Positions 7,341 through 59,714 of a DNA stretch of 64,000 bases are shown here, in pieces; the first letter of the stretch is position 1, and each line of letters starts with the position of its first letter. Under the pieces are notes generated by a model. That model worked only from the letters and a program-made list of their open reading frames with translations. It did no database searches and was not told where the DNA came from. A program made the position numbers and the translations under genes. Source of the stretch: Sneathiella glossodoripedis JCM 23214 (GTDB lineage Bacteria; Pseudomonadota; Alphaproteobacteria; Sneathiellales; Sneathiellaceae); NCBI RefSeq assembly GCF_000616095.1, contig NZ_BAMS01000001.1:62001-126000 (forward strand), given 5' to 3'.

Positions 7341-8066
7341 TTGGCCAAAGATTCTAGCAAAAAACGGAAAAACACAGCATCCGTAGACATGCTGGACACG
7401 GATATCGTTCGTGAATGGCTTTCTGCAAATCCTGACTTTTTTGACGTCAATAGCGACTTGATTGCTGAATTAATCGGGTCGAACCGGCATACAGAGAACG
7501 GTGTGGTGAACATGCAGTCTTTCCTTGTTGAAAGACTGCAAAAACAGGTGGCTGCGCTGAAAGAAATACAGGCAGGTCTCCTGTCGGCTGCACGAGCAAA
7601 TCTGCAAACCCAGCAAATGGTGCACAAATCTGTTCAGGCAATATTGTCAGCAACGAGTGTCTCGCATTTCGTCCACATTCTGACCCAGGATCTTCCCGAG
7701 TATCTGGATGTGGATGTGGTCACTTTATGTGTTGAGGATGGTTCAATCCCTTTACCCGCCATGACAGGGCTGCAGCGTCTGAAGAGCGGAAATATAAACA
7801 AAGCTAACTGGGCCGCGAACGATATACTTATGCGCCCCTCAGCGCCCAAATCCAAAGCCGTATTTGGGCCTGCCAAGGATCTGGTTGCCTCTGACGCCCT
7901 AATTCGACTGCATGTTCCGTTATTGAATGCGCCAGCAATGCTGGCAATTGGCAGCCGTGAAATTGGTCATTTTCATAATGATCAAGGTACAGAGCTTCTC
8001 TCATTTCTGGCAAATTGTGTTCAATCATTGTTGCAGATGTGGCTTGAACAGCAGAGCATTTCCTGA
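7341..8066 (+). CDS. DUF484 family protein
   Basis: Member of the DUF484 family (GAF-like fold), often encoded just before xerC and of unproven function. The product is 241 residues. It shows the early family segment VREWLSANPDFF (residues 18-29), followed by a predicted coiled coil around VERLQKQVAALKEIQAG and a GAF-like C-terminal part. The start is a TTG at 7341, with GGA about 8 bases upstream. Its TGA ends two bases before the xerC ATG, so the two are probably co-translated. A role linked to XerC is suggested by synteny only. Confidence 0.85.
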   Translation: MAKDSSKKRKNTASVDMLDTDIVREWLSANPDFFDVNSDLIAELIGSNRHTENGVVNMQSFLVERLQKQVAALKEIQAGLLSAARANLQTQQMVHKSVQAILSATSVSHFVHILTQDLPEYLDVDVVTLCVEDGSIPLPAMTGLQRLKSGNINKANWAANDILMRPSAPKSKAVFGPAKDLVASDALIRLHVPLLNAPAMLAIGSREIGHFHNDQGTELLSFLANCVQSLLQMWLEQQSIS

Positions 8067-8067
8067 A

Positions 8068-8979
8068 ATGGCCATATCGCAATCAGTAAGCGTTGCTGTA
8101 AAAAATTGGAAAAACTGGCTTCAACATGAAAAAAGAGTGAGTCCGCACACCTTTGAAGCTTATGTGCGTGACGTTGATAACTTCCTTCACTTTGTCTCTT
8201 TACATGCCGGAGAGACAGTTTCGATTTCGACACTGGAAAACCTGAAGGCTGCCGATTTTCGCGCATATTTGGCAGATAGAAAGTTCGAAGGGCTTAGTGC
8301 GACGTCCTTGGCGCGGCTACTCTCTTCTATCCGAAGCTTGTTCGGAAAACTCGAAAAAGACAAGATCCTGCATAATCCGACACTCAAAACGATACGATCA
8401 CCCAAAAAACCCCAGAGGTTACCCAGACCTCTTTCAGAACCAGATAGCAAAGCACTGATTTCAGCCCTTGATCAAGAACAAGACTGGGTTGCTGCCAGAG
8501 ATATGGCTGTAGTCACACTCCTCTATGGGGCGGGCCTAAGGATATCTGAAGTACTTTCTCTGAACATGGCTGACATTCCCGAAGGAGACACGCTGAAAGT
8601 TATTGGAAAAGGCAATAAGGAAAGACTGGTTCCTATTTTGCCGGTAATTCGGCAATCCATAGCATGCTATCTCGCGAGTTGTCCGTTTCCGCTAACGGGT
8701 GATGACCCGCTCTTTGTGGGAAAACAAGGGCGTCGTTTGAACGCTCGCTCAATTCAGCTCACTTTGCAACGTCTTCGTCGCGCACTCGGTTTACCAGAAA
8801 CCGCGACTCCCCACGCACTAAGGCACAGCTTCGCCACTCATCTTCTTCAGTCAGGTGGGGATTTAAGAACCATTCAGGAATTGCTTGGTCATGTGTCCTT
8901 GTCCACAACGCAGCGATACACGGATCTGGACACTGAAAAGCTGTTAAATGTCTACCGTGAGGCGCACCCAAAATCCTGA
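8068..8979 (+). CDS. xerC: Tyrosine recombinase XerC
   Basis: Site-specific recombinase that, with XerD, resolves chromosome dimers at dif. The product is 303 residues from the ATG at 8068, directly after the DUF484 stop; a longer reading frame upstream overlaps DUF484 and is not used. The N-terminal SAM-like core-binding domain covers roughly residues 5-95. The catalytic residues of the tyrosine recombinases are all present: R158 (GAGLRISE), the K182 region, H249 and R252 (HALRHSFATH), H275 (LGHVSLS) and the nucleophile Y284. It is therefore a complete enzyme and, by synteny, the housekeeping Xer rather than a mobile-element integrase. Confidence 0.95.
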   Translation: MAISQSVSVAVKNWKNWLQHEKRVSPHTFEAYVRDVDNFLHFVSLHAGETVSISTLENLKAADFRAYLADRKFEGLSATSLARLLSSIRSLFGKLEKDKILHNPTLKTIRSPKKPQRLPRPLSEPDSKALISALDQEQDWVAARDMAVVTLLYGAGLRISEVLSLNMADIPEGDTLKVIGKGNKERLVPILPVIRQSIACYLASCPFPLTGDDPLFVGKQGRRLNARSIQLTLQRLRRALGLPETATPHALRHSFATHLLQSGGDLRTIQELLGHVSLSTTQRYTDLDTEKLLNVYREAHPKS

Positions 8980-22476: not shown

Positions 22477-23217
22477 TCAGATCAATCCTTTCCAATAATA
22501 AACCGTAAGCCCGACATATTCCTTAAGAGCATGTTTCCAGTAATAAAATCCGTCAAATCCTGGAACTAAATCGGCTGACCCCAGGGAACTGTCATTAATT
22601 CCAACAATTACCATCCGCACATCCACACCTTGCTTGACTAACGCAGCTCGTGTCCGAAAAGCATGTATGCCTGAAACGAACACAACAACCTTGTTCAGCT
22701 GCTCTGACTTCAACAACCTGCTGATGTTGGCAGCATGCTCAGCTGTTCCTCCTGCGCCAAAAGACAATAGTAAGCGTGTTTCAAGTTCCAATTTACTCAC
22801 AAGAAATGGCAACTCACTAGCGCCATCCTGATCCGATCCGGATATCAGCAGCGGCACTTTCAATTGCTCAACCAGCTTTTGGGCGCGCATCACTCTGGTA
22901 AAAGAAGTTATAGACGGAAGCACTTCTTTAGTTGTGGGGTCCTGATGTCCGCCAGCCGCGATAACTGCAATTGCATCCACTTCCCCGGCTATTAGTTGCG
23001 ACTGAGCGACTTCCAAGCGAACGCCAATATCGATGGGGCGCAGTACCATCTTACCTATGATGGGAAAACTCATAAAAATAAGCAGCAACAAGGTTAAACG
23101 CAGATACCATCGACGCCCGGTAAACCAGGCAATGAGGACAGTCATCGGAAGCACAATTAACAACACACCTCCAAGAGACATCCCGTCCATTAATTGCGCC
23201 AGCATATAACCCTGCAT
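22477..23217 (-). CDS. YdcF-like DUF218 membrane protein
   Basis: DUF218 (ElyC/SanA/YdcF) family protein of 246 residues. Two N-terminal hydrophobic segments are followed by the DUF218 domain: DAIAVIAAGGHQ near the start, PLLISGSD in the middle and EHAANISRLL with VFVSGIHAFRTRAA later, the usual acidic and histidine pockets. Some relatives affect cell-envelope precursor metabolism. I chose the ATG at 23217, which has a run of eight G just upstream as its ribosome site. It begins only 53 bases after the upstream copy of a duplicated terminator. Confidence 0.82.
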   Translation of the reverse strand: MQGYMLAQLMDGMSLGGVLLIVLPMTVLIAWFTGRRWYLRLTLLLLIFMSFPIIGKMVLRPIDIGVRLEVAQSQLIAGEVDAIAVIAAGGHQDPTTKEVLPSITSFTRVMRAQKLVEQLKVPLLISGSDQDGASELPFLVSKLELETRLLLSFGAGGTAEHAANISRLLKSEQLNKVVVFVSGIHAFRTRAALVKQGVDVRMVIVGINDSSLGSADLVPGFDGFYYWKHALKEYVGLTVYYWKGLI

Positions 23218-23270
23218 TTCCCCCCCCTTTTGGCTAGTTTGACTAATCAACAAATTGCTTTCAAGCCAAT

Positions 23271-23294
23271 AAAAAAGGCCGCCCGAAGGCAGCC
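23271..23294 (-). repeat. Terminator repeat, copy A
   Basis: 24-bp direct repeat identical to 23972-23995. On the minus strand it forms a 7-bp stem (one U-G pair) capped by a UUCG tetraloop and followed by six U, a textbook intrinsic terminator. On the plus strand this copy is also followed by TTTT, so it may work both ways. It lies upstream of the DUF218 gene, where no minus-strand gene ends, which makes it look like a duplicate. Confidence 0.85.
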
Positions 23295-23409
23295 TTTTGA
23301 TTACATGACGTAAAAATTAATTGAATTTGCTTCTTCAAAAATTCTCACATTTAGTGTTACATTTAAGACATTTCGTAAGCACAACTTAACATTCAGTCAA
23401 TAAATTATA

Positions 23410-24000
23410 ATGCCCTCTGGAAATATAAATTACCACAAAACAGATTCACACGAAACGATCTCAATACCAACAAGAAAACACACCATTAATTCCATAGTTA
23501 TTATTTTATTTTCTATCACTTTGATAGGAACTATTGGAATGTTTCTTAATATAAGCCTGAACGCAACAAATAATGTAAAGAATGTAGTAGGTTTGATTTA
23601 CTATATTTTCGTTTGCCTGACCCTTTTTTTAGCGATTCTTTACCCGTTTTACTTGTTATTTTTAACATTTCGACCAAAGCGTCAGGAAATTTTAAAGCTG
23701 CTCCCTGATCAACTACAGATACATACCGGAACTTATCCTATCCGATACACAAAAAGTATCTCCAACTTCTATCGTCAACTTAAAAACAACAGACAAAGAA
23801 TATTCAAAATCAACAGTAAAGATGCTTTAAAAACACGATTGATTAGAGACGATGATCTCAATTTTCTACAAATTCTTCACAACAATAAGTATGTAGATGT
23901 CGCCGCGGGCGCAACCGACCAAGTACGAGAACAGCTTTTTCATCATATTCTCGACTATTATGAAAAAGAACAAAAAAGGCCGCCCGAAGGCAGCCCCTAA
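23410..24000 (+). CDS. Unknown two-helix membrane protein, AT-rich
   Basis: I do not recognise the family. The 196-residue product has two strongly hydrophobic segments, about residues 28-50 (SIVIILFSITLIG...) and 62-88 (VVGLIYYIFVCLTLFLAIL...), then a basic, Asn/Lys-rich soluble domain of about 105 residues. It is visibly more AT-rich than its neighbours and uses many AAA, ATA and AAT codons, which suggests a different origin. Its last codons (RPPEGSP) and stop are read through the terminator copy that serves sdhB on the other strand. No ribosome site is clear before the ATG at 23410. Because it fills the space between two terminator copies, it may be an inserted unit; it could also be a chance reading frame, although the clean membrane topology argues for a real gene. 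Confidence 0.6.
   Translation: MPSGNINYHKTDSHETISIPTRKHTINSIVIILFSITLIGTIGMFLNISLNATNNVKNVVGLIYYIFVCLTLFLAILYPFYLLFLTFRPKRQEILKLLPDQLQIHTGTYPIRYTKSISNFYRQLKNNRQRIFKINSKDALKTRLIRDDDLNFLQILHNNKYVDVAAGATDQVREQLFHHILDYYEKEQKRPPEGSP
23972..23995 (-). terminator. sdh operon terminator, repeat copy B
   Basis: Identical 24-bp copy of the repeat at 23271-23294. On the minus strand it forms a UUCG-capped 7-bp stem followed by six U, starting 26 bases after the sdhB stop. It is therefore the natural terminator of the sdhCDAB transcript. It overlaps the last codons of the plus-strand unknown gene. Confidence 0.9.
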
Positions 24001-24020: not shown

Positions 24021-24803
24021 TTATCCGCGACGTTCGACCATCATTTTTTTGATCTCTGCAATTGCCTTGGCTGGGTTCAAGCCTTTGGGGCAAGTGTTTG
24101 CGCAGTTCATGATTGTATGACAGCGATATAGACGGAACGGGTCTTCGAGGTTATCCAAGCGCTCCCCAGTGAATTCATCGCGGCTATCTGCAAGCCAGCG
24201 ATAGGCTTGTAGTAAGATAGCTGGACCCAGAAAACGGTCTGAGTTCCACCAGTAGCTTGGGCAGGATGTAGAACAACATGCGCACAGAATACATTCATAC
24301 AAACCATCCAGTTTTTCACGATCCTCCTTAGATTGGAGGCGTTCGCGGTCTGGCGGCGGCGGGGTTTGTGTCTGCATCCAAGGCTTAATTGAAGCATATT
24401 GCGCATAAAAGTTCGTCAGATCCGGCACAAGGTCCTTCACCACGGGTTGATGCGGCAGTGGATAAATATTGATGTCGCCATCGACCTCATCCATACCTTT
24501 AGTGCATGCCAACGTATTGGTACCGTTGATATTCATGGCGCATGATCCACAAATACCTTCCCGGCAGGACCTGCGAAATGTCAATCCCGGGTCAATCTCA
24601 TTCTTGATCTTGATCAACCCGTCCAGGATCATGGGACCACAGTCATCCAGATCCACATAATACGTATCGATGCGCGGGTTTTCAGCGTCATCCGGTGACC
24701 AGCGATATACATTAAATGTCTTTGTATTGGTCGCCCCTTCCGGTTTTGGATGGGTCTTGCCGGTGCCTACTCTCGAATTTTTGGGTAATGCCAGTTCTAC
24801 CAT
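24021..24803 (-). CDS. sdhB: Succinate dehydrogenase iron-sulfur subunit
   Basis: Iron-sulfur subunit of complex II, passing electrons from SdhA to ubiquinone. The product is 260 residues. The 2Fe-2S ligands are C80, C85, C88 and C100 ([13 protein letters not shown] and the later TLAC). The C-terminal ferredoxin domain has [12 protein letters not shown] (171-181) and [11 protein letters not shown] for the 4Fe-4S and 3Fe-4S clusters. It is last in the order sdhC-sdhD-sdhA-sdhB and is followed by its terminator. Confidence 0.98.
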
Positions 24804-58853: not shown

Positions 58854-59714
58854 AGGCTCCCTGCATCCTTAACAAACGAGACATCAACCAAAACCGCTGA
58901 CGCCTTAGTAAATATTATTAATTCAGGGAAATGAGCTTTTTATAGCCATACGACACCGGCTGCGCTCCAGACACACTTGTCCTTCACACTGTCACGCTTT
59001 TCTCCCTGTGATGCGGCCTTTTTGACCATCTTATTATTGGGCTTCTTTTTGAGCCGTTATTGATTGCATACCCACTTATCACATTAAAGGTCAAGTGAAA
59101 ACGATTTTTGACTTAAAATTTATGGAAAAAATCAGGAAATACGTAAAATATAATAAATATAAGAAAAAAACAAACATTTGTATTGTAAGTAAAAATTACA
59201 AACAAATTCTCGCAAATGCAATAACAAAGTCAATTTAACTAAAACCAAAATTTCATTTCTTTGTATACTAACTTGTTTTTTATACGAGTATTTTTATATG
59301 TTCTATTTTTTACTTAAAATTACTTTATTTAAAAACAGGAAGAATGATCGGGAGAACGTTTTCATTAATTACTAAAAAATACTACTACAAGGTAACTATC
59401 CAAAAACGCTCTAAAATTTTGCGAAATTTTATTCCCGCCATAACATGCTCCCAATCTGGTCCAATGCATTTAAAGGGGAATTTCCCGCTATCGATAGTTT
59501 AAATTGCTGTTAGCGATTCACATAATTCAAATCACATTATTAAATAAGCTTGATCGAACTCTCTACTTCTGGAAAACAGGACAACACCGCATATATAGTG
59601 AATGCAAGCATTAGAAAAAGACGACAATTGAGACTAATTGAGCGTGAAGTGAGCGTTAAAAAATTGATCTGACCCCATAAGCCTTCATTTCACCCAGACA
59701 CAAGGAGCGATATT
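58854..59714. other. AT-rich noncoding island upstream of acnA
   Basis: An 861-bp gap with no supported gene. The segment from about 59080 to 59440 is strikingly AT-rich compared with all surrounding DNA. It contains an imperfect inverted repeat at 59176-59207 (ATTTGT..TGTAA/TTACA.ACAAAT) and a perfect 8-bp inverted repeat at 59412-59431 (TAAAATTT/AAATTTTA around TGCG). It separates the divergent ligase-liv run and acnA, so promoters of both should lie in it; the AT-rich part may be a site for a nucleoid or regulator protein. No tRNA, no DnaA-box cluster and no convincing coding frame were seen. Confidence 0.6.
59412..59431. promoter_or_regulatory. Perfect 8-bp AT inverted repeat upstream of acnA
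   Basis: TAAAATTT and AAATTTTA flank TGCG with no mismatch, about 284 bp before the acnA start, at the downstream edge of the AT-rich island. It looks like a dimeric regulator site, but the regulator is unknown. Confidence 0.4.

Follow-up and report, generated by a model that had tools for sequence, protein, structure and literature searches.

An AT-rich gene between two copies of the sdhB terminator at an apparent site of recurrent gene gain in Sneathiella glossodoripedis

How did a single AT-rich gene come to lie between two identical copies of one transcription terminator, directly behind the sdh operon of Sneathiella glossodoripedis JCM 23214? Within the window, the 64,000-nucleotide stretch of DNA that was analyzed here, the 24-mer AAAAAAGGCCGCCCGAAGGCAGCC is present as two exact copies 701 bp apart (Table 1). 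The initial annotation had drawn attention to this spacing, had treated copy 1 as a terminator that no gene needs, and had proposed that the orphan gene between the copies (gene X) was inserted at a terminator by a mechanism that would be new or passive. We compared the locus with those of relatives and weighed several routes by which the present arrangement could have arisen.

The repeat itself was borne out, since it is exact at both positions, occurred zero times in shuffled controls, and is not scattered: a search of the whole genome (3.63 Mb, 12 contigs) found hairpin copies at these two places only, at up to 2 mismatches. With one mismatch it extends to 27 bp (23268-23294 versus 23969-23995). 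A still longer repeat reaching into the sdhB trailer was suggestive by eye and was dropped after shuffling, because 107 of 400 shuffles reached the same extension and the gain beyond 24-27 bp is therefore not significant. The repeat is inverted-symmetric and sits at the exact ends of the insert. On the minus strand both copies are predicted to fold into strong hairpins followed by U (-18.1 kcal/mol for copy 1 and -16.4 kcal/mol for copy 2, z about -3.8), and the U-tracts of both are oriented in the direction of the sdh operon. Copy 1 reads on this strand as a full hairpin with an A-tract, AAAAGGCTGCC-TTCG-GGCGGCC-TTTTTT, whereas copy 2 is missing the A-tract present in nearly all relatives and has AGGGG in place of AAAAGG. 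The flanks are TTTAGG to the left of copy 2 and ATTGG to the right of copy 1. Rfam matches around the terminators all fell below the gathering scores of their families and were read as hairpin noise. General repeat-pair scans covered a 0.48-Mb sample of the genome, which yielded a single further UUCG terminator, its stem unrelated to this one. The same sample held further exact direct repeats of 26-34 bp lying less than 2 kb apart (L088:59-1677 and L085:97-1123), apparently tandem duplications.

Table 1. Features of the interval between sdhB and the DUF218 gene (positions in the window).
Feature	Position	Strand	Basis
DUF218 gene, right flank of the gain site	22477..23217	-	PF02698, E=1.7e-6; adjoins sdhB in ten congeners
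Terminator copy 1 (DUF218 side)	23271..23294	-	Exact repeat, fold, match to G019
701-bp unit missing in relatives (X and one terminator copy)	23295..23995, equally 23268-23968		Comparison with 9 empty congeners
Gene X, 196 aa, convergent with sdhB	23410..24000	+	ORF, paralogue, codon-position conservation, low-confidence models
Terminator copy 2 (sdhB side), ends the sdh operon	23972..23995	-	Exact repeat, fold, alignment with relatives
Tail of X (..KRPPEGSP-stop)	23974..24000	+	Direct reading of sequence and paralogue alignment
sdhB, left flank of the gain site	24021..24803	-	Pfam Fer2_3/Fer4; 91-97% identical in congeners

An AT-rich gene between the repeats, as had been claimed, is confirmed: the insert (23295-23971) has a GC content of 32% versus 47.5% for the window, and the ORF is a real gene because a paralogue elsewhere in the genome conserves codon positions 1 and 2 (47% and 58% identity, with 27% and 29% expected by chance) and leaves position 3 near chance (32%, with 27% expected). 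The predicted protein begins with two long hydrophobic helices, probably membrane helices, and continues into a small C-terminal alpha/beta domain ending in a helix, in structure models of low confidence (mean pLDDT 53 and 59). No curated family in Pfam, NCBIfam, PHROG, or PADLOC matched X at cut-off; membership in AmaP was rejected, its weak match reaching 17.6 bits versus a cut-off of 55. The C-terminal codons of X come from reading the terminator in reverse, and the frame ends past copy 2, at a stop codon in the sdhB trailer. Since this tail is made of terminator and trailer and the tail of the paralogue is unrelated to it, the junction cuts through the 3' end of X. On the plus strand copy 2 is not followed by a U-tract, which leaves X without a dedicated terminator. 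Elsewhere in the window, positions 58854-59714 are also strongly AT-rich (to 31% GC) and lack a long ORF, between AMP-ligase-like and aconitase-like genes.

The search for relatives of X returned the one paralogue in the same genome and no homologue among 24 congeners, 96 relatives, and about 380-385 members of the class; plasmids, phages, viral contigs, and genome contigs gave no matches or chance-level ones only. The term "orphan" thus holds for the relatives searched but not within the genome itself, where a diverged copy is found at dusA.

The region 3' of sdhB was readable in 22 congeners, in the order sdhB, terminator, next gene. Nine of these have an empty site, in which sdhB is followed by a single terminator and then by DUF218 or another gene, and DUF218 lies near sdhB in eleven genomes, this one counted. 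Each lineage without an insert has one terminator, which is the same hairpin in most and an unrelated one in G011. Because the site is empty in nine congeners and X is missing from every relative searched, X was inserted; comparison establishes this much, and the route is inferred. The ancestral order is sdhB, one terminator, and DUF218, with X since placed between them and the terminator now found on both sides. These one-terminator sites, together with a 24-mer confined to this locus, support the proposal of insertion at a terminator, and the arrangement that would have spoken against it, a gene in place in all relatives with diverged terminators, was not observed. The description of copy 1 as unneeded, however, is unjustified, as copy 1 stands at the position of the single sdhB-DUF218 terminator of the relatives. 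In G019 that single terminator is the identical 24-mer and matches copy 1 over 32 bp, including the A-tract and ATTG, which shows that identical copies can stem from two sdhB loci. The exact junctions of the 701-bp unit are hidden by the repeat, and naming either copy as the resident one can thus be no more than a leaning.

Sneathiella glossodoripedis is not the only member of the genus with additional DNA here. Extra genes, mostly AT-rich and of four unrelated kinds, lie behind sdhB in 6 of the 22 genomes (this one among them), which is the pattern of varied accessory genes in one core interval that characterizes a hotspot. G005 (L055, 144-850) has a toxin-antitoxin-like pair between the sdhB terminator and DUF218, with matches to PF05973 and PF21716 (Gp49-like; addiction-module antidote), and G017 (L065, 3081-4120) has an AT-rich membrane protein gene and a small ORF, antisense to sdhB, at 35% GC. 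No second terminator was seen in either genome. The G017 protein was considered as an X homologue at the same site and ruled out, as the two have no sequence similarity. A lipoprotein gene lies behind sdhB in G003, G018, and G010, framed by two terminators that differ from each other. In G018, 111 bp of the DNA past the insert can be aligned with what follows sdhB in the empty genome G022, starting from the sdhB stop codon; the insert therefore lies exactly at the stop codon and brought a different terminator to sdhB. At both ends of the G010 insert, the 3' end of sdhB is repeated imperfectly over 15 bp. The extra genes are patchily distributed on the tree, which fits repeated gain and loss, and the interval behind sdhB is by these comparisons a recurrent site of gene gain.

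The paralogue offers a second view of the X family. It lies on contig 10 of the same genome (G000, 281487-282107), is 34% identical to X over almost the full length (E=4e-34), and falls inside a 3.7-kb segment that has a repeat of the dusA 5' end on each side (68 bp, 97% identical, 3,739 bp apart). The ORFs between the repeats encode DUF2628, PrsW, and the X paralogue. An integrase, including the dusA-specific one of such islands, is absent from this segment, and the whole contig gave no integrase-domain match. Prophages and islands are well known to integrate at dusA (PMC4482086), and its arrangement here suggests that the X family travels as island cargo at no fewer than one place. On the evidence of this paralogue, X probably encodes a membrane-anchored protein and forms part of the cargo of islands, and it may have reached sdhB by a similar island route. 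A weaker third copy of the dusA 5' end (75%) lies between the two 68-bp repeats, so that three copies in L072:6601-10407 bound adjacent segments, DUF2628-PrsW and the X paralogue; this looks like tandem island accretion with loss of the integrase. At this locus of island integration, a frameshift splits dusA into two frames (L072:5828-6744; contig 10, 277827-278743), so that the gene is broken or the sequence contains an error. The sister species G006 also has three dusA 5'-end copies (contig 2, 198608-204726; L117, L120, and L121), and islands have probably accumulated at dusA there as well.

Several known systems resemble the sdhB locus in part. Like a site-specific integrative island of the tyrosine-recombinase type, it has att-like direct repeats (24/27 bp) and empty sites with one copy, but X is the only ORF of note in the 701-bp insert and the nine integrase-domain matches of the genome are all elsewhere. 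It shares with dusA-targeting islands (PMC4482086) the direct repeats of the target that bound the insert, and the X paralogue indeed lies between dusA 5'-end repeats; unlike those islands, X itself is at sdhB, an integrase is absent at both places, and the sdhB repeat is a non-coding terminator. An insertion sequence or transposon was rejected, as there is no transposase, the insert ends carry no terminal inverted repeats, and X matches no family at cut-off. As with Tn7 behind glmS (PMC2918618, which cites Gay et al. 1986 for insertion into the glmS terminator), the insert directly follows a conserved gene, falls in or close to the terminator of that gene, and spares it; neither tns genes nor Tn7 ends were seen here, however. 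The repeat at sdhB measures 24-27 bp, whereas the duplication made by Tn7 is 5 bp. One gene flanked by two copies of a palindrome is superficially like an integron cassette, but no integron integrase is near the insert, attC features were not seen, and the hairpin is the one that ends sdhB in relatives, which accounts for the repeat as a terminator typical of the genus. The closest likeness is to integrase-free hotspots (Oliveira et al. 2017, PMC5635113), which also have differing accessory genes in one core interval, one or two genes per insert, and no recombinase; the exact terminator repeat at the boundary sets our locus apart from them.

We therefore favor, at about an even chance of being correct, the reading that X is a recently gained accessory gene at a hotspot, brought in by host recombination with sdhB-type DNA of a relative, with the second terminator as a by-product. 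The incoming DNA would have come from a relative or an island in which X lay behind an sdhB-type terminator, and host recombination would have joined it, with the sdh genes supplying homology at one end and the terminator a short-homology join at the opposite end. Of the two terminators, one would then be the resident and the other would have arrived with X. The pair would be a scar rather than a device serving X, because both copies act in the direction of sdhB and X has no terminator of its own. Differences outside the core, where only copy 1 has the A-tract, are expected if the copies come from two loci. Host recombination would account for the near-identical terminators, their differing flanks, the lack of a recombinase, and repeated gains within a single core-gene interval; the dusA-bounded paralogue, the other genes at the same site, and a terminator with only two copies in the genome are also in its favor. 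Hotspots without recombinases, at which host recombination in the core genes on either side exchanges the genes between them, have been described (PMC5635113). Given these and the recurrent gain site, the proposed "new or passive" mechanism can be narrowed, as a new one is not needed. Several points stand against this reading. No donor was found, and no segment of sdhA-sdhB is clearly closer to another congener, in a comparison that is weak since all known congeners are only ~80% identical there. A target duplication would predict the exact match of 24 bp more directly than two separate terminators would, and G005 and G017 show no second terminator.

A rival route, which we regard as doubtful, would use a trans-acting integrase at the terminator. 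The hairpin would then be an att-like core, the repeats attL and attR, and X the cargo of a minimal element that a tyrosine recombinase integrated and might also excise. The inverted-symmetric repeat at the exact ends of the insert is what such an element would leave, the genome has nine integrase-domain genes, the paralogue lies in a dusA-type integrated segment that is likewise integrase-free, and the sdhB 3' end has been hit repeatedly in the genus, with a repeat of that end in G010. However, there is no integrase within or next to the insert or at dusA, the one integrase near the repeat in the window (7927-8979) looks by its sequence like a XerC/XerD housekeeping protein, no second locus in the genome is bounded by the same terminator, and a designed cargo unit would avoid a junction that cuts the coding frame of X. 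The stronger form of this idea, in which the sdhB terminator is a true att site for tiny integrase-free elements of one membrane gene moved in trans, with the X family as their cargo at sdhB and dusA, seems to us quite improbable.

The junction within the last codons of X would fit an unplanned capture, in which one event both joined X illegitimately beside the terminator and duplicated that terminator, through fill-in of a staggered break or template switching at the hairpin. Such an event would explain identical copies without homology to a donor and gains some favor because hairpins stall replication, but we judge it unlikely: the genome has no Ku protein, which makes classical end joining improbable, 24-27 bp is long for staggered fill-in, and the A-tract of copy 1 would be coincidental. 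It is very unlikely, finally, that the match arose by chance from X's own terminator or that a tandem terminator was kept to control read-through before DUF218. Strong UUCG terminators with a similar stem do occur elsewhere in the genus, yet the sole other one in the genome sample is unrelated, the shuffles gave no chance match, and neither copy terminates X.

The best reading is thus an ordinary insertion of an accessory gene at a hotspot of gene gain, and an element of a clearly new kind is not called for. It provides a clean, small example of a single gene entering the space behind a core operon, leaving the operon intact and a terminator on both sides. As several unrelated genes have arrived at one spot in one genus, the locus could serve to ask whether passive gene gain is guided by terminators. 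Should this terminator prove to be an att site, it would point to minimal elements mobilized in trans, of a kind overlooked by present island searches, which are keyed to integrases.
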